Origin: a bacterium
GTDB lineage: Bacteria > ARS69
Assembly: GCA_025774805.1 (NCBI GenBank)
Contig: JALGZR010000051.1
Location: 1-39,152 of the forward strand
Direction of reading: 5' to 3'
Length of the DNA stretch: 39,152 bases
The translations under genes and the position numbers were made by a program. The notes under the pieces are model-generated. The model saw nothing but the letters and a program-made list of their open reading frames with translations, was not told the DNA's origin and did no database searches. Position 1 is the first letter of the stretch, and each line of letters starts with the position of its first letter. Shown in pieces: positions 7,165-20,867 of this stretch.

Positions 7165-8190
7165 TTACCTTAAGATGACCATTCGTCGGGAGAGGTCTTC
7201 CCCGGCTACGCTGAGTCGGTAGAAGTAGAGCCCACCGGCAACGCGCTGCCCTGTCGCATCCCGACGGTCCCAGGGCACAACGTATTCCCCAGGCCGCAGC
7301 ACCGCACGCGCGAGATCGGTCACCTTGCGACCGGCGACGTCGTACACCGATACCTCTGCGAGTGCGTGCCGCGCGACGGCGAATCGTATGGAGGTCGCGT
7401 TCGAAAACGGGTTCGGCGCGTTCTGCCATAGATCGAGGTAGACCGGAGCGGCATCGCCGGACGGGGAGACGCCGGTGACCGTCGATTTCCACGCGTCGTA
7501 GGCATCTTGGAGGAGATCGATCGGGTTCTGGATCGACGTCGTATTGTTGATGTTGAGATCGAGGAAGAGGCTGGACTCGAGGTCATCGGGCCTCGCGACG
7601 CGGATGAACGCGGAGATCGCCGGTTTGTTGGGTAGGCATCGCGTGTCGGCTCCGGGTACGTTTGCCCCTTGCAGGGCCGCCATCAGCTTGTCGGCCAGTG
7701 TTCCGGAAGTTGTCAGAAACGCCTGCTCCATTGCGTCCAGGATGTGCTGGCCCAGCAGGATGTTCCCGGCGATGGCGTAAGTCGGGGCCAGATTGTGATT
7801 CTTGTAGTCGGTGCAGTTCACACCGGTGTGGCCCGCACTCCTGCCGCCTCCGACGAGATCCACGATCCCGTACTGGCGAATGGTCGGATTTCCTTGAGCG
7901 TCATTCGCGACCAGCGAGTCGATGATCGCCTCCGGGGAGAGACCCTGGTCCATGAGACTATGGGCGTAGTTCTGATTCTGAGCGCGCCACCAAGCCTGGG
8001 TGTGAATCGCGCCGAGTCCCGGGTGAACATCGCTGATGATGATGGAGCCCGCGATGCAGGAGGCTCCCACACTCCCCACTTCCTGGGTGACGGGATCCAC
8101 GGCCACCATCGAGAAGGTGGCGCCAGCCACTGACGCGCCGAGGGCCGTCATGGCGAACGAGAGAGCCATCAAGAGTGTCCATCGTCTCAT
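7165..8190 (-). CDS. Secreted DUF1028 (Ntn-hydrolase-like) protein with sorting domain
   Basis: Exported protein of 341 residues. The signal peptide ends about residue 24 (SVAGA, then TFSMVAVDP). The mature N-terminus TFSMVAVDPVTQEVGSVG is the usual start of DUF1028, a family placed in the N-terminal-nucleophile hydrolase clan. Processing here would expose a Thr or Ser at or next to the N-terminus. The domain runs to about 240 (GVVG-like turns, GRSAGHTGVNC, YAIAGNILLGQHILDAMEQA, LADKLMAALQGANVPGADTR). From about 255 there is a FlgD-like sorting module: NAPNPFSNATSIRFAVA, VYDVAGRKV, GLYFYRLSVAGEDLSRRM. GGGGAG six bases upstream supports the ATG. The substrate is unknown. Cell-surface anchoring or secretion through a type IX-like route is inferred. 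Confidence 0.85.
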   Translation of the reverse strand: MRRWTLLMALSFAMTALGASVAGATFSMVAVDPVTQEVGSVGASCIAGSIIISDVHPGLGAIHTQAWWRAQNQNYAHSLMDQGLSPEAIIDSLVANDAQGNPTIRQYGIVDLVGGGRSAGHTGVNCTDYKNHNLAPTYAIAGNILLGQHILDAMEQAFLTTSGTLADKLMAALQGANVPGADTRCLPNKPAISAFIRVARPDDLESSLFLDLNINNTTSIQNPIDLLQDAYDAWKSTVTGVSPSGDAAPVYLDLWQNAPNPFSNATSIRFAVARHALAEVSVYDVAGRKVTDLARAVLRPGEYVVPWDRRDATGQRVAGGLYFYRLSVAGEDLSRRMVILR

Positions 8191-8291: not shown

Positions 8292-10628
8292 TCACCGGAG
8301 CAGGATCACACGATTCGTCCCGGCCCCACGGTTCGTCTCCAGCCTGACGAAGTAGACACCGGAGGAGACCGGCCGTCCGAAGTCGTCCAACCCACGCCAC
8401 CGGACGTCGTGGCGGCCCGCGGGAAGGGGTTCCCGGATCAGCTGACGTACACGACGTCCGTGCGTGTCGTGGATCGTCAGTGTCACGGGGCCGGGCTGGA
8501 CCAGCTCGAAGCGCAGGTTTGTGGATGGGGCGAACGGATTGGGGAAGCCTTCCACCGACGGGACGGTAGACCCTTCGTCGAAAGCGTCACGCTCGGCCAC
8601 CGCGACGGCGGCCACCCCCCGCCGGTCCAACGCGGGATCGCCGTACAGGTTGTAGTCGAAGAGGTTCTTGTACTCGTAGTAGTGGTCGTACGCGTAGTTC
8701 TGGTGGCAGTAGCCCTTGGCGTCGAGGAGGGCGTCTCCCACCCGCCGCGGCCCGGCCGGGCCGTCTATCAGGAAGCGGTTGAACTCGTAGCAGATCGACT
8801 CCGCGCCGCCGGGAGGATCGGGCCAGTAGATGCCGACGGCGGCGCCGCGGGTGGCGCTCAGGACCGCGGCGGCGGTGCCGAATCCGGGCTTCGTGAGGAG
8901 ATCGTTCCCGAGCCTTCCGTACGGGTTCGGCTCGGGATACCCCACGTTGCATGAGATGGCGAACACGATGGAGGACGCGTCGTCCTCGAGCGACGAGGTC
9001 CTCTGAATGAAGGGAATCGACTGGATCCAGTCGGATCCGTCCGTTTCGGGAATCCCGTCGCCGTCGTCCGTCCACCACACCGTCCGGGAGGCGCACACGC
9101 ACGCCCCGTGACCGCTCCAGTTGACGACGCCGTATTGCCCGTCACGCCAGGCGGCCGTGAAGAGACTCTCGGTCATGGGATCCCAGGGGTATTCGGAGGG
9201 AGCGAGCCCCTCGTGCTCGCAGGTGCGGGTCACGGCCCAGCCCGGCATGAGATCGTCCCGGATCGGAGCCAGGCACCGGGCGCCGTCGATGCCCGGGTAT
9301 CCGTCCCCGTCCTGGTTTTCGTAGAACAGGATCGTCGACCCGTGGAGAGCCCGGTCCTTCCAGTCGCCGGTGTCGCTCTCGAAGGCGATCAGCTTGTTCA
9401 GGGTGTAGGTCACCCGAGTCGCGTTGCTCGTCGGGATCCGGCCGACCGCGATTTCGGGCATGAAATCGGGCATATCCTGGCCGTACTCGCCGGGGTAGCC
9501 GTCGCCGTCAAGATCCCAGGACTGGTCATCCGGTAAAGAAAGGTCCGCGTAGTAGGCGTCGGTGGGCGTCTCACCTCCATAGGTGTTCGGATCGTCGGGG
9601 TGGAAGCTGTGATTCGTGGGATCCGCCCAGCAGTAGCGCATCGGCACGTCGGCGAGGGTGCCGATCAGGAACACGTACTCGATGCCCCACGCCGCCTGGT
9701 ACTCGCGCAGGAAGCCCCGGATCCGGCCGGCCAGATCGGCTTCCGGTCGGCCCGCGATCTCGCTGTCGGTCGTGAGAACGAGGCGCACCGAGTGTCCGAG
9801 TGCCGTCTTCCAGCTCACGAAGTTCGACGCGTTGATGGCGGGGATCAAGCTGGAAGTGGTGACGATGACGTAGTCGTGGACCGCCCGGCGCTCGCGCGCT
9901 GCAGGCGCCTCGAAATCGTACAGAGACCGCACCTGATCGTAGTTCATGAAGAGTCGGGCGGCGGCCTCGTCGGTAGAGGGACCCAGGAGCAGGCGCGCGT
10001 CGTCGCCTTCGCCGGAAGATCCGCCCGAAGAGATGCGGTAGCGCACCCGAACGTCCGCGGCGGGGCACAGTTCGAGCCGGCCGGAGACGGGACGGTATCG
10101 GAACGGGGTGTACTCGAGCATCGCGTAAGCCACCGCACGGAGAGCGCCCGCTCCGACGAGACGTACCTGCTGAAGGGGAACGAAGGCGTCCGAGGCATAG
10201 GCGGACGCCCGGATGCGGGCTGTCTCCTCGATGATCTCCTCTCGCTCGCGGGCCACGGCGTCCTCGAAGCCGGGAGGAAGCAGGGGAGGGGTGGGTGAGA
10301 TTCGATACGTCCCCCGGACTTCGTCGAAGCGAGGGGCGACGATCTCCACGGACCCCACACGGGCTCCGGGAGGGAGCGCCACCAGGAAGCGCCGGGCCGG
10401 AATCGCGGGCGTCCCCGGGGCCGACGAGCACTCGAACCCGTCCATGCGAATCCGATGGCCATCTCCCTCGGGAAGAATCCGGAAGGAGGCCGACTCCAGA
10501 CGCACGACGATCTCACCGTCTCCGGCCGCAAGAGCTGTCCGGAGAGCGGGATCGACGCCGGCGGCGAGGAGGACGGTCGCCATCGCGGCCAGTACCGCGG
10601 GTCGGACGCCTCGTGAAGCTCCGAACAT
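8292..10628 (-). CDS. Secreted gingipain-type cysteine peptidase (C25) with sorting domain
   Basis: Exported protease of 778 residues. I start at 10628 because the ATG there has GAGGAG eight bases upstream and opens a signal peptide (MFGASRGVRPAVLAAMATVL, cleavage after about LAA). An earlier in-frame ATG at 10691 would bury it. An N-terminal propeptide-like region is followed by the C25 domain: YVIVTTSSLIPAINASNF, YVFLIGTLADVPMRYCW, EIAVGRIPTSN. The catalytic pair is His507 in NWSGHGACVC and Cys560 in VFAISCNVGYPEPN. Three Asp-rich loops (DLDGDGYPGE, DGDGYPGIDG, TDDGDGIPET) look like calcium sites. The C-terminus is a FlgD-like sorting module (GFPNPFAPSTNLRFELVQPG to YFVRLETNRGAGTNRVILLR). 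Gingipain relatives are secreted by type IX systems, so the same route is inferred. The peptide preference cannot be predicted. Confidence 0.9.
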   Translation of the reverse strand: MFGASRGVRPAVLAAMATVLLAAGVDPALRTALAAGDGEIVVRLESASFRILPEGDGHRIRMDGFECSSAPGTPAIPARRFLVALPPGARVGSVEIVAPRFDEVRGTYRISPTPPLLPPGFEDAVAREREEIIEETARIRASAYASDAFVPLQQVRLVGAGALRAVAYAMLEYTPFRYRPVSGRLELCPAADVRVRYRISSGGSSGEGDDARLLLGPSTDEAAARLFMNYDQVRSLYDFEAPAARERRAVHDYVIVTTSSLIPAINASNFVSWKTALGHSVRLVLTTDSEIAGRPEADLAGRIRGFLREYQAAWGIEYVFLIGTLADVPMRYCWADPTNHSFHPDDPNTYGGETPTDAYYADLSLPDDQSWDLDGDGYPGEYGQDMPDFMPEIAVGRIPTSNATRVTYTLNKLIAFESDTGDWKDRALHGSTILFYENQDGDGYPGIDGARCLAPIRDDLMPGWAVTRTCEHEGLAPSEYPWDPMTESLFTAAWRDGQYGVVNWSGHGACVCASRTVWWTDDGDGIPETDGSDWIQSIPFIQRTSSLEDDASSIVFAISCNVGYPEPNPYGRLGNDLLTKPGFGTAAAVLSATRGAAVGIYWPDPPGGAESICYEFNRFLIDGPAGPRRVGDALLDAKGYCHQNYAYDHYYEYKNLFDYNLYGDPALDRRGVAAVAVAERDAFDEGSTVPSVEGFPNPFAPSTNLRFELVQPGPVTLTIHDTHGRRVRQLIREPLPAGRHDVRWRGLDDFGRPVSSGVYFVRLETNRGAGTNRVILLR

Positions 10629-10770
10629 GGGTCCAGCTCCTCGCGTGGTGAGTTTTCTGCCAGGCTCGGGCAGCTCGCCCCGACCGGGCATTCAAATGGT
10701 CGATCCTTGACTCAGGAACAGTCTACCTGTGCGGAACCCAGGGAGGCAATCGCCCCGCGCCTCGATGGAT

Positions 10771-12415: not shown

Positions 12416-13966
12416 TCACCAGCTCCGGGGCAGATCGCGAAAGTACTCGTGGAGCTCCCGCCGCGCCTCCCGATTGACCCGTTCGGTCCAGAGATCCACC
12501 GGATTCCGATCGTCGGTGAAGACGAGGGCGCTCCGCGTCTCGGGGACGAACCGGTTGTCCCATGCGTGGTTCATCTGGACTCCCCGCCAGTGTTCGTGCG
12601 GTCGGTCCAGGAGAGAGGAGAGGCGGGGCAGACGTTCGTACTCGTCGAACTCGAGTGCGCGCCGCGATCCCACGATCAAGACGTTGCCGACCGCGTCCGG
12701 CGGCTCCCTCGTGGGCAGGGCCAGAACCTGATCGAGGTGCGCTCCCACCGTCGCCGCCAGGGATGCGACCAGGGGATCGTCCCATCCCCAGACCTCGACG
12801 TTCACGGCCAGAACTCCGTCCCCGGCGAGTCGGGAGACCATGAGCCCGAACGATTCCAAGGTGGCGAGGTGGAAAGGAATCGACGAGCTGCCGAACGCGT
12901 CGACCACGATCAGGTCGTACGACTTCGCCGTCTCCCGAAGAAAGCGGCGTCCGTCCCGGAGGTGAACCGCGCAGTCTTCGCTCCTCAACCCGAAGTGGTC
13001 GCGAGCCACCTCCGCGACGACCGGATCGATCTCGACGGCATCGACGCGCCACCCGTGCTCCGCATACCTCTTGGCGATCGATCCGGCCCCGAGTCCGACG
13101 AGCAGCATCGAGCCGGGCCTCTCGAACAGGAAGTCGAGCACGTCGAGGGCGGCGGCGTAAGGGTGCCAAGTCCTCCAGGTGGCCGGATCGACCACGGAGT
13201 GGATTCCTCCGTCGATGAGAAGGTGACGCGCGCCCCGAGCCTCGACGACCCGGATCTCCGCGTACGGGCTCTGCCGTACGTCGAGCAGTCCGCGCGAAGG
13301 ATCCGGAGCGTCATCCGAAAGCTTTGCCATCCCGGCCGAACCGATTCCGAGAACGAGTAGCGCCGCCGTTCCCCGATCCCGCGAGCCCCCGATCCGTGCG
13401 AAGAACGCGAGCCCGCTCGCCGTCAGGAGGGCCAGACCGATGGCGTAGGTGAGGCGGCCTACGCCCATCGCGGGAATCAGGAAGAATCCCATTCCCAGGG
13501 CGGACACGACGCTCGCCACCGTGGAAACGGCGTAGAGGTTGCCCGCGGTTCGTCCCACGTGATTCAGGTCTCGGGCCTTCAGCCGAATCGCGTAGGGGCT
13601 GACCATTCCGAGAAGCGTGAGCGGCGGGGCGAAGAGAAGCGTCGCGGTGACCAGGACTGCAGCCCTCAACCCGAGCGGCTCGGCCGCGAGGAGAACGGGA
13701 TGTTCGAGAAAGGGGACCGCGAGAACCCACAGCCCGGCGGCGCCGAAGAGCAGCCCCAATCGGGAGAACGAGGGCCCGCGGTCGGCCCAGCGCCCGCCTA
13801 CCGCGTACCCCACGCTGAGGGCCGCCAGGGTCACGGTGATGAGCGCCGACCAGAGGAAGAGGCCCATCCCGTAGAACGGACCGAGGATGCGTGTGCCCAG
13901 GATCTCGAGGGCGAGCACCGCGGCGCCGGAGATGAAGACGATGACATACAGGCGAAGATCTCGCAT
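12416..13966 (-). CDS. Membrane-fused spermidine-synthase-like protein
   Basis: Inner-membrane protein of 516 residues. About seven hydrophobic helices (residues 5-215) carry the polytopic pattern of fused-MFS/spermidine synthases, with LALEILGTRILGPFYGMGLF in the first two. A spermidine-synthase-like Rossmann domain follows: GLGAGSIAKRYAEHG near 291-305, the VEIDP acidic loop at 311-315, LRDGRRFL, and IVVDAFGSSSIPFHLATLES at 353-372. Family members transfer aminopropyl groups from decarboxylated SAM or are methyltransferase-like; most fused forms are uncharacterised. Here VDAF replaces the classical D-x-x-D-P gate, so polyamine synthesis should not be assumed. The stop of the small lipoprotein gene lies 21 bases upstream on the same strand, which suggests one transcript. 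Confidence 0.8.
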   Translation of the reverse strand: MRDLRLYVIVFISGAAVLALEILGTRILGPFYGMGLFLWSALITVTLAALSVGYAVGGRWADRGPSFSRLGLLFGAAGLWVLAVPFLEHPVLLAAEPLGLRAAVLVTATLLFAPPLTLLGMVSPYAIRLKARDLNHVGRTAGNLYAVSTVASVVSALGMGFFLIPAMGVGRLTYAIGLALLTASGLAFFARIGGSRDRGTAALLVLGIGSAGMAKLSDDAPDPSRGLLDVRQSPYAEIRVVEARGARHLLIDGGIHSVVDPATWRTWHPYAAALDVLDFLFERPGSMLLVGLGAGSIAKRYAEHGWRVDAVEIDPVVAEVARDHFGLRSEDCAVHLRDGRRFLRETAKSYDLIVVDAFGSSSIPFHLATLESFGLMVSRLAGDGVLAVNVEVWGWDDPLVASLAATVGAHLDQVLALPTREPPDAVGNVLIVGSRRALEFDEYERLPRLSSLLDRPHEHWRGVQMNHAWDNRFVPETRSALVFTDDRNPVDLWTERVNREARRELHEYFRDLPRSW

Positions 13967-14472: not shown

Positions 14473-17016
14473 ATGACTGGACTGGCCGCTCTCTTCCTGA
14501 TCCTCTCCGGCTGTGCCGCCCTCGCGTACCAGGTGGTCTGGGTCCGCCTCCTGGGCCTCACCCTGGGATCGACCGCCGCATCCGTCAGCACGGTGCTGGC
14601 CGCCTTCTTCCTCGGAATCGCGCTCGGCAGCGCGCTGGCTCCCCGGCTCGGAGCACGTCGTGATCTCCTGCGCGTCTACTTGACGCTGGAGGCGGTGATC
14701 GGTGTGTCGGGGTCGATCCTGCTTTACGTTCTCCTCGACCTGGACCGACTGATCGCCGCGCTCCCCTTCGAGCACGTTGCCTTCGAGTTCACGTTCACGT
14801 TTCTCCTGCTCCTCGTTCCGACCGTGTGCATGGGGGCGTCCTTCCCCGTGCTCGCCTCCCACGTTCTTCGCCGCCCCGGGCAGATCGGATCCGGGCTCGG
14901 CCTCCTGTACGCCGCCAACACGGCGGGAGCCGTCATCGGAGCCGCCCTCTCCGGCTTCTGGCTCATCCCCCGGTGGGGCCTGGACGGAGCCAATCTGGTC
15001 GCCGCCGGCCTCAACTTCACGATCGTCGCACTGGGAGCCGCGTTTGCTCGCGCGGGGTTCCTCTCCCCGCCCGGGGAGGAGCCTCCTTCTCCGGCGCCCG
15101 ACCGCATCGCTCTCCCGGCCGGAAGGGCGACTTCGCGACCGCGGGATCGTCGCGCCGCGCTGCTTGTTCTCGCCGTGACGGGCTTCTCCTCCATCGCGAC
15201 CGAGGTCGGTTGGACGAAGTACCTCGTCCTCTTCACGGGCGGGACGGTCTACGGCTTCGCGACGATCCTCACGGTATTCCTGGCCGGGATCGCCCTCGGT
15301 TCCTGGGCCGTCCGATCGCGTCTCGACGCCATCGAGCGTCCCCGGACCTGGCTGGTCGGTGGCCTCATCGCTCTCGGACTCTCCCTCCTCCTCACACGGG
15401 GGGCGCTGACCTTCCTGCCCGATGCGCTCGAGCTCGTGAACGGAATGGAAGGAGGGCGGGTTCCGAGATTGCTCGCACGGTTCGGGGTCGTGGCCGCGGT
15501 TCTCTCGGCTCCGACCCTCCTCTTCGGGGCGCTCTTCCCCCTCACGCTGAGCGTGTACTGCGGAGGAGCCACGGGAGTCCGGTCGCACCTCGGACGCGCC
15601 TACGCGGTCAACACGGTGGCCGGCGTCCTGGGGTCCCTGTGTGCCGGATTCTGGTTGATCCCTCGCTACGGCACGAACGCTCTCCTCACCGCGACGGCCC
15701 TGGGGACTCTCCTCCTGGCCCTCCTTCTGGTCTCCGGGATCCCCTCCCCTCGCACCCGGTTCGCCGCGGTGACGACGACTCTCGTCGGGTGCGCGATCGC
15801 GTGGATCGGCCCCGCTCTGAGCTTCGAGGAGCTGATCGGGGCGGTCCGATACCCTTGGGATGAGGCGGCCCGGTCCGGCGTCCGGCCCTCCTTTCTCTAC
15901 CTGCGTGAGGGCCGAACCGGCGTCATCAGCGTGGTCACCTACGACGGGCGGACGGCCCGGTTGCAGAACAACGGGCTCAACGAGTCCATCGTCGACCTGG
16001 ACGGCACCGGCGGCGACTCCTTGACCGAGTCCCTTCTCGGCCTCGTTCCCTGGCTTCTGCACGAGGACCCTCGGTCGTGCTTCGTCGTCGGGTACGGAGG
16101 GGGAGTGACCGTTCGCGCCCTGGAGCGGACCGATCTGGAGCGCATCCGCGTGGTGGAGCTGGAGCCGACCGTGGTCGAGGCGGTCCGCTCCGTCTGGGGG
16201 GCGCGATCCGGCCTGGACGACGAGCGGATCGAGCTCGTCTACGACGACGCCCGGCACGACCTACTCGTCGGAGAGGGAGGCTACGATCTCGTCGTCTCTC
16301 AGCCTTCCCACCCGTGGCTGGCCGGCGCGTCACCGCTGTTCACCGAGGAGTTCTTTCGACTCGTGCGATCCCGTCTCTCCGAGGGGGGCGTCTGCGGCCA
16401 GTGGCTCAACCTCTTCAACATGGACGTGACGACGCTGCGCTCCCTCACCGCCACGTTCTATGCCGTCTTCCCCCACGGCTTCACGCTGGCCGTGCCGGAG
16501 AGCGGAGACCTCCTCTTCTTCGGATCGAGATACCCCATCCGGATTCGGCCGGACCTCCTCGAGACCCGGATGACGTCTCCCGGGGTCGAACGGACCCTGT
16601 CGGCCTGCGGGATCCGCGATCGCGTCGATCTGCTCCGGCGCTTCGCCTGGTCCCGGCGCGAGGCCGTGGCCCTTTCGGCCGGAAGTCGGCGGAACACCGA
16701 TCGGAACGTCCTCTCCGAGGTCCGCCTGGCCGCGCTCAACCTGCGGCGGGATGCGGCTCCTCCCGCCGCGGAGGACCCGTACGCGTTTCTCCGCGACCAC
16801 GCCTCGTTCGACCTCGAGCCTCTCGTCGAGGCCGGAGCCGCGCCGCGAGTCCTGACCGAGGTCGCCGAGCGTCTCATCGAGCTCGACGAGCGCCGAGACG
16901 CTCGTTCCGCTCTCGAACGCCTTGCGCACTTCGACGTTGAGCAGGCGGCCGTCCTCGAGGAACGGCTGGTCGCCCGGGGTCGCGCGCGAGCCCCTGACCC
17001 GCGTTTCCCGGAATGA
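14473..17016 (+). CDS. Large fused membrane/spermidine-synthase-like protein
   Basis: Inner-membrane protein of 847 residues. Two six-to-seven-helix halves make up residues 1-465. Each has an A-(Y/T)-x-x-x-W opening (LAYQVVWVRLLGLTLGSTAA; IATEVGWTKYLVLFTGGTVY) and an LY/AYAANT repeat (YAANTAGAVIGAALSGFWLI; YAVNTVAGVLGSLCAGFWLI), so the halves look like an internal duplication. The C-terminal Rossmann domain has VVGYGGGVTVRALERT near 536, VVELEPTVVEAVRSV, and SQPSHPWLAGASPLFTEEFF near 608, where this family usually has (S/T)-(E/Q)-P-S-N/H-P-W. A helical tail follows. The family is common in metagenomes and its reaction is unproven. It is transcribed divergently from the smaller relative across 110 bases. 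The ribosome-binding site is weak. Confidence 0.8.
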   Translation: MTGLAALFLILSGCAALAYQVVWVRLLGLTLGSTAASVSTVLAAFFLGIALGSALAPRLGARRDLLRVYLTLEAVIGVSGSILLYVLLDLDRLIAALPFEHVAFEFTFTFLLLLVPTVCMGASFPVLASHVLRRPGQIGSGLGLLYAANTAGAVIGAALSGFWLIPRWGLDGANLVAAGLNFTIVALGAAFARAGFLSPPGEEPPSPAPDRIALPAGRATSRPRDRRAALLVLAVTGFSSIATEVGWTKYLVLFTGGTVYGFATILTVFLAGIALGSWAVRSRLDAIERPRTWLVGGLIALGLSLLLTRGALTFLPDALELVNGMEGGRVPRLLARFGVVAAVLSAPTLLFGALFPLTLSVYCGGATGVRSHLGRAYAVNTVAGVLGSLCAGFWLIPRYGTNALLTATALGTLLLALLLVSGIPSPRTRFAAVTTTLVGCAIAWIGPALSFEELIGAVRYPWDEAARSGVRPSFLYLREGRTGVISVVTYDGRTARLQNNGLNESIVDLDGTGGDSLTESLLGLVPWLLHEDPRSCFVVGYGGGVTVRALERTDLERIRVVELEPTVVEAVRSVWGARSGLDDERIELVYDDARHDLLVGEGGYDLVVSQPSHPWLAGASPLFTEEFFRLVRSRLSEGGVCGQWLNLFNMDVTTLRSLTATFYAVFPHGFTLAVPESGDLLFFGSRYPIRIRPDLLETRMTSPGVERTLSACGIRDRVDLLRRFAWSRREAVALSAGSRRNTDRNVLSEVRLAALNLRRDAAPPAAEDPYAFLRDHASFDLEPLVEAGAAPRVLTEVAERLIELDERRDARSALERLAHFDVEQAAVLEERLVARGRARAPDPRFPE

Positions 17017-17428: not shown

Positions 17429-18241
17429 TTACTGGAGCGCGTAGTGCCATCTTAACTCTCTGGCGAGACCATCCAGTTCGGGGAATACGGTCGCCTCCGC
17501 GACCCCCAGGGTGTACAGCTCCCGCCGAAAGCTCCTCGCGCTCTCCGTACGAAACCGTAATCTGTGCAGCTCGAGATGGTCGCTTCTCTGCGCCAGGTTC
17601 TCCAGTCCGTAACGTCTCCGCCCGTGAATCGTGAACACGCTCTTTTGCACCTCGACTCTCGGGTCGATGTAGGGAGGCGCTACGGGCACGGGATCGTCCG
17701 GCAAGTCATGTCCCTCGGTCAGGTAACGCAACTCGATCTCCTCGTCCTGCTCCTCCATTTGCTGGGGGTCGGCGCTGTAGATCAAGCCCTCGCCTCCCCC
17801 CGCGAGGTCCAACGAGTACGGTTCGAGGACCCAGACGCAGGGGACCCGCATCTCTCGAGGATCTCGAACCGCGAAGTACAGGGCGAGGAGCGCGGCTGCG
17901 GTCCAGTCCAACAGTCGGGTCGGCAGTCCGTAGTGCTGCATCAAGAAGTACCATTCCCAACGGGACAACCTGCGATTGCTGACGAACGGCTTGGCGCGCC
18001 GCGAAAACTCGCGGAAGATGTCCATGGCCGTGTCCGGGTCGTAGGACCACGTCTCTCGTCGATATAGACCCGGCACGAGGGGATAGCTGGATCGTCCTAC
18101 GCCACGGAACCACAGCTCCTCGGTTTCCGTTTCTCTCCGGAGCTGATCCACTGCGCGCAGGTACTCCTCGATCGTGTCGAAGGGGTCCCGGTTCGTTCGG
18201 ATTCCTCTACGGCTTCTGTGGAAAGCGATTGCCGAAGGCAT
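17429..18241 (-). CDS. FRG-domain protein
   Basis: Soluble protein of 270 residues without signal peptide. It carries a full FRG domain: the naming motif ELWFRGVGRSSYPLVPGLYR at about 41-60, and further on WYFLMQHYGLPTRLLDWTAA with LLALYFAVRD. These are the conserved core residues of the family. The domain is found alone or fused in many bacteria and phages, often near toxin-like or defence genes; its biochemical activity is not established. GGAAG lies about 10 bases before the ATG. The beta-helix gene ends 42 bases upstream on the same strand, so the two may be co-transcribed. An eight-base inverted repeat (17403-17410 with 17434-17441) spans the stop codon but lacks a T-tract. Confidence 0.85.
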   Translation of the reverse strand: MPSAIAFHRSRRGIRTNRDPFDTIEEYLRAVDQLRRETETEELWFRGVGRSSYPLVPGLYRRETWSYDPDTAMDIFREFSRRAKPFVSNRRLSRWEWYFLMQHYGLPTRLLDWTAAALLALYFAVRDPREMRVPCVWVLEPYSLDLAGGGEGLIYSADPQQMEEQDEEIELRYLTEGHDLPDDPVPVAPPYIDPRVEVQKSVFTIHGRRRYGLENLAQRSDHLELHRLRFRTESARSFRRELYTLGVAEATVFPELDGLARELRWHYALQ

Positions 18242-18283: not shown

Positions 18284-19798
18284 TCACCGCCCCCGGAACA
18301 TCGACTTGATCCGACCCCAACTTCTCGGTTCGGTGGCAATCGGCCCGCATCCGACCGGGAATGCCCCCACGAGCCCGCAGCCGGTCACTCCGGGCGGCGC
18401 GCAGGGTGAGTCGGACTGGATCGTATAGTCGCCCGATGCGGCGTCACAGAAGAGGGGATCCAGGACGAAACTCGTCGCGTCCATCGTGAACCCGTCCGTG
18501 TCCCCGGCCTCGTTCAACCAGTAGCAGTTGCATGACTCGTAGACCGCACCGACGTCGCGGATTCCGACGGCCGGGGATCCCGAGCTCTCGGTGAAGATGT
18601 TGTTGTGGACGTCCATGGCATACCCCGGGGGGTCGAGCGGCCAGATTCGGATCGCGGCGCCGGGGGGGTCCGGGTCGAGGTCGTGACAGCGGACGAAGGT
18701 GTTGCCCGTGATCTCTCCCCGCGTCCATCGGCAGTGGAGGGCCCCGAACCACATGGAGGTAATGTCGACGAACACGTTGTTCCTCACGTACGCGAAGCCC
18801 TCCCAGGAAGGACTGAGAAGCTCGACCGCTCCCGTGGATCCGGAACAGCGCTCGAACCTGCAATCCTCGACGGTGCGGGTGTTCACGTAGATGGCATAGA
18901 CCGCCCCCGAGCCGATGGAGCTATGGCCGACTCCGTCGAGGAAGGTGCAACGCCGGACCGTGCCGGACGAGTTTCCCGGCCTGATCATGTAGACCGGATG
19001 GTGGAGGCAGTGATCGAAGAGGCAGTCCTCGACCGTCGTGTGGACGGCGTCACTGAAAATGCCGCAGGGCTGTGAGTTGCCCTCGAACGTGCAGTTCCGG
19101 ACGTCGAGATAGCGCAATCCGAAACGCGCCATGATGCCGCCGCGGTTCGTGAACACGCAACCCAGCACCTCCATTCTGTTCGGGGAGGGCAAGTGCTCGG
19201 CAACGCCCACGCTCCCCCGTGTGGTGAATGTCGGGCCGCCCACCACGTCGGAGAAGGCGCAGTCGACGATGCGTGACCTGCCGGCGTTCACGGACCAGAA
19301 TCCGCCCGCCTGCTCCCCTCCGTCCACGCTCTCCACGATGCAGTCTTCGATGTGGATCCACCACGTCTCGGGCATCTCCCGCGCGAGGACGGCGGTCGCT
19401 CCCGACACTCCTTCGAGACGGAAGCCGACGATCCGGGATTCGGCGTCTCCTTGCCCCAGGGCGGCCACCAGACAGTGGACGTTCGGGCCTCCGGAGACGG
19501 CGATCGTCGTGGCGCCCGGCCCGTCCTCGGAGACGAGACTCACTCCGGGCGCAAGGAAGCCGCCGGCCGTGAGCGTGACCGACTCGGCCGGGTCGGAGAA
19601 TTCGAAGTCTCTCGAGACTTCCGTCGTGTAGGTCCCGGCGGCGACCAGCACCGTGTCGCTCACCGCCGCCGAGTCCAGTCCCGCGGGAATCGTCGGGGCG
19701 TCTCCCATGCCGTCGGGGGTGATGTACCAGGTCCGGGCGGCCGCGGAGGAGAGGGGCAGGACCAGGAAGAGCACGGCGGGCAGAGCGGAGCGAAGCAC
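18284..19798 (-). CDS. Secreted right-handed beta-helix protein with W-G-R-I-K tail
   Basis: Exported protein of 504 residues. The start is a GTG at 19798, supported by AGGAGGT six bases upstream and by the signal peptide that follows (LRSALPAVLFLVLPLSSAAA). The body has the repeated strand pattern of pectin-lyase-like parallel beta-helices (PbH1 repeats): YLDVRNCTFEGNSQPCGIFS, TVEDCLFDHCLHHPVYMI, VRRCTFLDGVGHSSIGSGAV, TVEDCRFERCSGSTGAVELL, YVRNNVFVDITSMWF. No polysaccharide-lyase or hydrolase catalytic residues can be assigned, so it may bind or structure rather than cut. The C-terminus is CGPIATEPRSWGRIKSMFRG followed by Arg. It lacks the FlgD-like module but shares the W-G-R-x-K tail with the Cys-rich protein at 20127-20867. 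Confidence 0.85.
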   Translation of the reverse strand: MLRSALPAVLFLVLPLSSAAARTWYITPDGMGDAPTIPAGLDSAAVSDTVLVAAGTYTTEVSRDFEFSDPAESVTLTAGGFLAPGVSLVSEDGPGATTIAVSGGPNVHCLVAALGQGDAESRIVGFRLEGVSGATAVLAREMPETWWIHIEDCIVESVDGGEQAGGFWSVNAGRSRIVDCAFSDVVGGPTFTTRGSVGVAEHLPSPNRMEVLGCVFTNRGGIMARFGLRYLDVRNCTFEGNSQPCGIFSDAVHTTVEDCLFDHCLHHPVYMIRPGNSSGTVRRCTFLDGVGHSSIGSGAVYAIYVNTRTVEDCRFERCSGSTGAVELLSPSWEGFAYVRNNVFVDITSMWFGALHCRWTRGEITGNTFVRCHDLDPDPPGAAIRIWPLDPPGYAMDVHNNIFTESSGSPAVGIRDVGAVYESCNCYWLNEAGDTDGFTMDATSFVLDPLFCDAASGDYTIQSDSPCAPPGVTGCGLVGAFPVGCGPIATEPRSWGRIKSMFRGR

Positions 19799-19876
19799 GA
19801 CAGCACCTCCTGTGTCTGTTGCTCCCTCGAGCCTACATCGCCGGGACCATCAGGTACAAGAACGGGCTCGAGCTCG

Positions 19877-19972
19877 CTACCTTCCCCCGAGGTACACGAG
19901 TTTCCTCGACCGGGTGACCTCGCCCGCCGTCAGCCGCGCGAAGTACGCATCGAAACGGGCCGGGCGTCGCGA
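19877..19972 (-). pseudogene. C-terminal fragment of a FlgD-like sorting domain
   Basis: Minus-strand codons end with RFDAYFARLTAGEVTRSRKL, then VYLGGR and a stop. This equals the last strands of the type-A sorting module (VYFARL-x-TG, RKLVLL) found intact in the DUF1028, C25 and DUF362 proteins here. Upstream codons (Arg/Pro-rich) do not continue the fold, and no start or enzyme domain is attached. It sits just 5' of the beta-helix gene on the same strand, as the other fragment sits 5' of the C25 gene. Confidence 0.5.
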
Positions 19973-20025
19973 GTTCAAGCGTCGCGCGTGCTCTTCGGGT
20001 CTCCTCCGTGGAGGCGCCTCCGGAG

Positions 20026-20034
20026 TGGTATACT
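20026..20034 (+). promoter_or_regulatory. Candidate extended -10 promoter of the Cys-rich protein gene
   Basis: TGGTATACT is a TGn extended -10 followed by TATACT (five of six consensus). No good -35 is visible, as often with extended -10 promoters. Transcription would start near 20041, leaving a leader of about 86 bases before the ATG. Confidence 0.4.
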
Positions 20035-20126
20035 GTGCGAGGGGTTGTCGCTCGCACTCCTCACCTCCGCTCCGGATTTTCTCACCGTGGGGACCTCGCT
20101 CTCCGCGCCGATTCGGGAGGTTCAGC

Positions 20127-20867
20127 ATGGCGACGAGGGTCTCCCGGGCGGTCCTCCTTCTCGGGGCCGTGTCCGGCCTTCCTCTCCTCGGTGCCGGCCC
20201 CGTCCACTCACAGGGATTGAGTTACGGCTGGTCGATCAGCGCGGGCGCGACCGAAGCCTACGACAACCACATCGAGTTCCCCGGAGCCAGAGTTTTCTCC
20301 TTCTACCTGTGGCTGGTCTGCGCTCCCACCGGCTCGGCCGGGATGTCCGTCGCCGAGTTCGGCCTGGCGAGCTCGGGCGGAGGCAACCTGATTCTGGAGT
20401 TCATTCCGCAGAACGGATTCCTCAACACTGGAAGCGCCACCAACCTCCTCCTCACGGTCGGGCTGTGTCCCTCGGGACCGGTGATGGCGGGGGAGATCCG
20501 CGTCCTGATCACCGAACCGGGAAACCTCTGCCTCACCACCTCGGAGGGGGGTGTCCTCGCCACGGAGGACTGCGTGATCCCGCCCCCGCTCCCCGACACC
20601 TGGCGGGGGCTCGACTTCGGCGGGGAGTTCTGCTTCCAGGGGGCCATGTGCGATTTCTTCGACGCCCCCATTCCGTGCTGCTTTCCGGACGGCTCCTGTG
20701 AGGAGATCTCGGCCCTCGAATGGGAGCAGTACTGTCTCGGCAACGGCGGGTACGCCCCGCCCGTGCAGTTCTGCTCCGACTGGAACTGCGCGCCGGTCGC
20801 CGTAGGATCGGAGCCTCCGGTTCCGCAGCCGTGGGGAAGGGTCAAGGCACGCTACCGTGTGAGGTAG
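20127..20867 (+). CDS. Secreted Cys-rich protein with W-G-R-V-K tail
   Basis: Exported protein of 246 residues. The ATG at 20127 has GGGAGG six bases upstream; longer frames have no ribosome-binding site. The signal peptide is about 28 residues (RAVLLLGAVSGLPLLGAGPV, cleavage near HSQ). The middle is beta-rich without a recognised family. Near the C-terminus is a Cys module, CCFPDGSCEEIS then YCLGNGGYAPP then CSDWNC. It resembles the short C-C-x-x-D-G-x-C repeats seen in many secreted proteins of Planctomycetes and related groups. The last residues are GSEPPVPQPWGRVKARYRVR, matching the W-G-R-I-K-x-x-F-R tail of the divergent beta-helix protein. Function is unknown. The sulfatase-like gene starts 50 bases downstream on the same strand, so one transcript is likely. 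Confidence 0.75.
   Translation: MATRVSRAVLLLGAVSGLPLLGAGPVHSQGLSYGWSISAGATEAYDNHIEFPGARVFSFYLWLVCAPTGSAGMSVAEFGLASSGGGNLILEFIPQNGFLNTGSATNLLLTVGLCPSGPVMAGEIRVLITEPGNLCLTTSEGGVLATEDCVIPPPLPDTWRGLDFGGEFCFQGAMCDFFDAPIPCCFPDGSCEEISALEWEQYCLGNGGYAPPVQFCSDWNCAPVAVGSEPPVPQPWGRVKARYRVR

Follow-up and report, generated by a model that had tools for sequence, protein, structure and literature searches.

Two secreted proteins with a common C-terminal tag

The window, which is the whole stretch of 39,152 nucleotides that was analysed, encodes two secreted proteins that end in the same short motif, here called the tag, and two proteins with a different C-terminal module that serve as a contrast. The features are as follows.

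7165..8190, minus strand: DUF1028 protein with an FlgD_ig-like tail, for contrast (DUF1028 1e-35; FlgD_ig 8.8e-4)
8292..10691, minus strand: C25 (gingipain-type) peptidase of the FlgD_ig tail class, for contrast (Peptidase_C25 8e-36; FlgD_ig 2e-7, residues 735-788)
18284..19798, minus strand: secreted right-handed beta-helix protein of 504 aa, tagged (Pfam Beta_helix 3.8e-17 and DUF5123)
18287..18322, minus strand: C-terminal tag of the beta-helix protein, SWGRIKSMFRGR (core from W to R 18293-18319; genome pattern match 18294-18319)
20127..20867, plus strand: secreted Cys-rich protein whose core is a cohesin-like beta-sandwich; it belongs to a tagged multi-copy family (22 by iterated HMM)
20832..20864, plus strand: C-terminal tag of the Cys-rich protein, WGRVKARYRVR (core from W to R 20832-20858; genome pattern match 20832-20857)

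The beta-helix protein terminates in GPIATEPRSWGRIKSMFRGR directly before its stop codon. The Cys-rich protein, for which the best start placement was 20127 and whose stop codon ends at 20867, terminates in PPVPQPWGRVKARYRVR; its tail sequence, up to 20864, is PWGRVKARYRVR. Both tails are present in the sequence as an earlier note on this DNA had described them, and the note was also correct that both proteins have signal-peptide-like N-termini (MLRSALPAVLFLVLPLSSAAA in the beta-helix protein) and lack the FlgD-like module of other exported proteins encoded nearby. In a Pfam search FlgD_ig was found in neither of the two, while it was found in the C25 peptidase and in the DUF1028 protein, the latter match, at 19.6 bits, lying under the curated 27-bit cut-off. 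The same search found no Pfam domain in the Cys-rich protein.

An FRG-domain protein (17429-18241, minus strand) is encoded immediately downstream of the tagged beta-helix gene. Elsewhere in the window, a membrane-bound spermidine-synthase-like protein (MFS and Spermine_synth; 14473-17016, plus strand) is adjoined by a second spermine-synthase-like protein on the opposite strand (12416-13966, minus strand).

Frequency, placement and conservation of the motif

The 5.1 Mb genome was searched with a degenerate codon pattern that encodes W-G-x-[ILVM]-K-x-x-[FY]-R. There were 48 matches to W-G-x-[I/V/L]-K-x-x-[Y/F]-R in the genome, compared with 0 for the reversed control pattern, and when the stretches around the matches were translated, the motif lay within 10 residues of the stop in 47 of the 47 recovered reading frames. 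These counts indicate that the motif is not a product of chance. The earlier note had placed it exactly at the C-terminus, which held in part: the Arg is the last residue in 33 of the 47 tails of this genome and in 118 of all 136, while both window proteins continue for two residues beyond it and are slightly atypical, since most tails stop there.

In the other genomes the motif was C-terminal in 110 of 111 frames. One internal-looking copy, followed by 169 residues, occurs at L091:873-2034 and may be a read-through or a joined frame. No internal copy was found among 528 called genes, the background for the window's own genome being about 0.8 Mb of stretches; the motif is not as common elsewhere as at C-termini, contrary to one alternative that the earlier note had raised.

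With a position-specific score built from the 136 tails, 46 matches at C-termini scored above 20 bits, no match fell between 10 and 20, and the weaker ones were never C-terminal. Because no scores fell between 10 and 20 bits, the tag signal is sharply defined. W, G, K and R were invariant, and Y or F was present throughout, in the 136 tails, although these tails had been selected by a regular expression that specified W, G, K, F/Y and R. Positions that were not selected were also conserved, namely E at -4 (2.3 bits), [S/T] at -1 (2.2 bits) and L at +6 (2.1 bits), with further preferences for V or P at -5 to -8 and for I over V or L. The consensus ahead of the motif was P-[VT]-[PSA]-V-[ED]-x-x-[ST]-W-G, so that the Pro/Glu-rich stretch noticed before the two window motifs is not general. 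The only degenerate tags found were W-A-x-x-K variants, with W-A in place of W-G, of which there were 5 in the window's own genome and 14 in the genome G002.

Proteins that carry the tag

Grouping of the protein bodies by BLAST, after the last 22 residues had been removed, divided the carriers of the window's own genome into 24 unrelated groups, and there were 49 groups overall. The carriers in this genome included beta-helix proteins, the cohesin-like Cys-rich family, propellers and many orphans. Tandem arrays of paralogs were frequent among tagged genes, for example at L103 (nine), L129 (five) and L117 (four), and also at L128, L048 and L078.

Signal-peptide-like starts, as called by a simple and crude script, were found in 34 of 43 carriers versus 82 of the 267 other genes that random stretches contained (Fisher p=2.6e-9), an enrichment for which the earlier note had proposed to test. 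About nine of the 47 carriers in this genome had no predicted signal peptide; several of these resemble misplaced starts or contig edges, and several have an evident signal peptide at an alternative start. None of the 136 tails contained a membrane segment: mean hydropathy over 19 residues peaked at 1.55 in the final 60 aa, under the threshold of 1.6.

Comparison of the 136 carriers with NCBIfam gave a match to choice_anch_V over the cut-off (L096), one to choice_anch_J near the cut-off (L044), a ScyF-like match that was strong but below the equivalog cut-off (L100), and a partial match to rhombosortase- and myxosortase-dependent M36 proteins (L114). In other lineages, bodies of two of these kinds, choice-of-anchor and ScyF-like, carry different sorting tags. 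The families listed for the 136 carriers (the best 25 of 34 in NCBIfam and 25 of 36 in Pfam) included no tail model and no CTD or FlgD_ig model.

Independence of the tail from the protein body

An iterated HMM assigned at least 22 tagged proteins to the family of the Cys-rich protein. In an alignment of 21 members with a mean column identity of 30%, the W, G, K, Y and R of the tail were invariant, and the sole other invariant column was one Gly of the core. The stretch ahead of the tail ranged from absent to more than 80 residues. Members of this family of small, cohesin-like secreted proteins, which has several copies per genome in this bacterial family, were found at 20127-20867 of the window and at L035, L037, L048, L053, L063, L065 and L066.

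The AlphaFold model of the Cys-rich protein contained a confident beta-sandwich at about residues 33-140, for which the top Foldseek matches were cellulosomal cohesins (E 3.9e-5, TM-score by target about 0.55-0.6). The last 12 residues had pLDDT <50 and included a helix (236-242) that lies outside the confident core. The model of the beta-helix protein (pTM 0.82) ended in a low-confidence linker followed by a short helix at residues 494-502, exactly at WGRIKSMFR. In both models, the tail is predicted to be a short, low-confidence helix outside the fold, and with bodies that differ this speaks against the notion, also considered in the earlier note, that the tails are conserved only through a common fold. 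The helical moment of the core was 0.51, versus 0.40 +- 0.19 for shuffles, and the strand moment was 0.55; because the helical moment is barely above the shuffles and not above the strand moment, it lends weak support to an amphipathic helix.

A homolog of the beta-helix protein in the same genome (L063:3885-7661) ends in an FlgD-type tail instead, which indicates that the two tail classes can serve similar bodies.

Distribution across genomes

A strict DNA pattern that included the stop codon was scanned over 84,980 species, with one genome each. It matched 44 stretches, all of them in Eisenbacteria or in close or unnamed lineages, labeled Eisenbacteria, UBP1, Effluviviaceae, 'Latescibacterota', Krumholzibacteriia, 'Gemmatimonadota DHS20C21' and unnamed MAGs. 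DHS20C21 is evidently the same as G002, from the family of the window's own genome, because the match coordinates are identical. The sole match in Krumholzibacteriia (L110) is a doubtful short frame.

There were 15 to 80 copies per genome in 23 of the 25 strict-pattern genomes, compared with 0-1 for the control. Five genomes of the window's own GTDB phylum contained 20 to 50 copies each, most of 47 Eisenbacteria contained at least 10, and the distinct genomes with at least 10 copies numbered 51. A subgroup of Eisenbacteria had 0-3 copies, with none in G038, G060 and G064, the last of which is a small genome; G038 is nevertheless listed with relatives rich in the tag. These three tagless genomes keep SprA-like, PorV-like and, where searched, FlgD-type proteins. 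The single copy in G008 (L096) belongs to a true carrier, whose body is of the choice-of-anchor V kind, and genomes with few copies may thus have retained the machinery. In the open-access journal literature that was searched, nothing on such a tag was found, and no paper linked Eisenbacteria with type IX secretion, a sorting signal or a C-terminal motif.

Search for a partner of the tag

A sortase- or rhombosortase-like partner, which the earlier note had proposed to look for, did not emerge. Sortase (PF04203) was absent from the window's own genome and present in only 2 of 31 genomes, and rhombosortase (TIGR03902) was found over the cut-off in 0 of the 31. Exosortase (PF09721) was found in many or most of the 31, including the window's own genome, and was missing from the tagged genomes G002, G004 and G010 while present in the untagged G038 and G060. 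Exosortase EpsH genes are widespread, with one at G000:C15:28624-29394 and others in 20 further genomes. All three enzymes were rejected as the partner, because in the 31 genomes they were either absent or not distributed together with the tag. LPXTG, PEP-CTERM, GlyGly-CTERM and MYXO-CTERM signals consist of a motif, a membrane helix and a basic cluster (PMC3237569, PMC11980579). Since the tails have no membrane segment, and the enzymes searched for are absent or do not track the tag, the tag is not of any of these types.

Components of type IX secretion were found in every genome tested. SprA was present in 31 of 31 (27 over the cut-off), including all 19 tagged genomes tested, with a partial SprA in G038, and PorV/PorQ was present in 31 of 31 with 6-18 copies each. 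FlgD_ig (PF13860) proteins numbered from 60 to more than 150 per genome in the ten genomes searched, G000 among them. From this abundance of FlgD_ig outside the Bacteroidota, together with SprA, type IX secretion looks to be a main export route here. SprA and PorV/PorQ were rejected as the factor that distinguishes tagged genomes, being equally present in nearly untagged relatives; FlgD-type tails are likewise present in relatives that lost the tag, and the gene order around sprA was common to tagged and nearly untagged genomes. No subfamily in a tree built from 70 PorV-like sequences was common to all five tagged genomes and absent from the five nearly untagged ones. Weak PorV-like matches confined to tagged genomes, which included a related barrel pair in G000 and G001, were in no case common to all of them. 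The tagged genes were dispersed, with many different cargo bodies, and no family of non-tagged neighbors recurred beside them in three or more genomes.

Comparison with known C-terminal signals

In the PEP-CTERM/exosortase, GlyGly-CTERM/rhombosortase, MYXO-CTERM/myxosortase and LPXTG/sortase systems, as with the tag, a short region of homology is confined to the C-terminus, occurs on dozens of unrelated Sec-exported cargoes per genome, and is restricted to certain lineages. The cargo bodies are also partly of the same kinds (choice-of-anchor, ScyF-like). However, those signals are tripartite, whereas the tag lacks a membrane helix and stops with the motif. The type A CTD (TIGR04183), the type B CTD (TIGR04131) and FlgD_ig tails of type IX secretion resemble the tag in being C-terminal, in accompanying a Sec signal peptide and in occurring on many cargoes, and the SprA translocon and PorV-like proteins occur in tagged genomes too. 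The difference is that type IX CTDs are folded domains of 40 to >200 aa, Ig-like or beta-sheet, while the tag has about 9-16 residues and no fold of its own. Choice-of-anchor proteins (choice_anch_J, _V, _C) are bodies paired with a lineage's own C-terminal anchor, and some of those found here end in the tag, but that naming covers the body and not the tail.

Possible function of the tag

The tag has the layout of a sorting signal that the earlier note had recognized, in that it is C-terminal, is carried by exported proteins with unrelated bodies, and is separate from the FlgD-type tail. Judged from these sequence features, it is very probably a sorting or anchoring signal of exported proteins. 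The explanation that best accounts for the whole is a linear C-terminal sorting signal read by a receptor, forming a second class beside the FlgD-type tails, and we consider it likely. Tagged proteins would cross the inner membrane via Sec, as their signal peptides suggest. Once they are in the periplasm, their final 9 to 16 residues, ...P-V-x-V-E-x-x-[S/T]-W-[G/A]-x-I-K-x-L-Y-R-COOH, would be read as one unit by a dedicated receptor, perhaps as a short amphipathic helix with W, I, L and Y on one face and K and R on the other. The receptor would then pass the folded cargo across the outer membrane or dock it on that membrane. Type IX secretion accepts more than one signal class via different shuttles (PMC12618676). 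If the tag does sort or anchor proteins, the favored and most economical exit, put forward tentatively, would be through the type IX translocon SprA by way of a candidate adaptor, comparable to the shuttles of type A and type B CTDs. The earlier note's view of a second C-terminal class for exported proteins is well supported by inference, and a second export or attachment route is inferred from it, the partner search having returned no gene.

The tag might instead be a type IX signal reduced to a minimum, a third CTD class that shares the SprA/PorV machinery of the FlgD tails and needs no new dedicated component. SprA and 6-18 copies of PorV/PorQ accompany the tag in all tagged genomes, basic and aromatic or hydrophobic residues close both classes of tail (those of the FlgD class finish like KMVLLK), and in models Prevotella CTDs of just 40-51 aa bind PorV (PMC11969387). 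However, even the shortest known CTD is about three times as long as the tag, the tag has neither an Ig-like or beta-strand domain nor CTD motifs (GxY and others), and G060, along with G038 with its partial SprA, keeps SprA, PorV and FlgD-type proteins yet has lost the tag, so this is a conceivable reading but not one we would lean on. It is rather unlikely that the tag is a docking peptide on proteins secreted by another route, binding a surface receptor or scaffold non-covalently in the manner of dockerin and cohesin. Its strictly C-terminal, invariant and short form after a flexible, low-confidence linker would suit such a peptide, as would the dispersal of the genes and the variety of cargo bodies, but no receptor family was found, and the first residue of the core is as strict as the last, which a processing or export reader would explain equally well.

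Two further explanations are highly improbable. One is that an exosortase, rhombosortase or sortase recognizes the tag as part of its type of signal; in favor are the presence of PF09721 in many of these genomes, including the window's own, and cargo that resembles that of PEP-CTERM and MYXO-CTERM. These enzymes need a hydrophobic helix (PMC3237569, PMC11980579), which was present in the last 60 residues of 0 of 136 tails, and neither the near absence of sortase and rhombosortase nor the distribution of exosortase agrees with it; in its plain form this explanation is refuted by the missing membrane segment. Even less probable is a tail without any role in sorting that was spread by mobile or duplicated gene ends, or one that is a conserved part of a single fold. 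Several tagged genes are indeed tandem paralogs, but there are 24 unrelated bodies in one genome, the residues are strictly conserved across several phylum-level lineages, and the tail lies outside the fold in both models. Spread without a role is strongly contradicted because neutral sequence would not hold W, G, K, Y and R over such a distance.

The receptor-read sorting signal may belong to an undescribed system for outer-membrane export or surface attachment in Eisenbacteria and related phyla, parallel to type IX secretion, with a code of about 14 residues that is free of a membrane helix and is read by a putative receptor, though we propose this with caution. All the short C-terminal sorting codes in the comparison depend on a membrane helix, and the signals of type IX secretion are folded domains. 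A strict code of nine residues that has no such helix, borne by dozens of exported proteins in each genome, would point to a receptor or translocation adaptor still to be found in several uncultured phyla, and a gene that co-occurs with the tag is a clear target for the search. The tag can also be used at once as a rule to predict part of the surface proteome in bacteria where most such proteins are unnamed.
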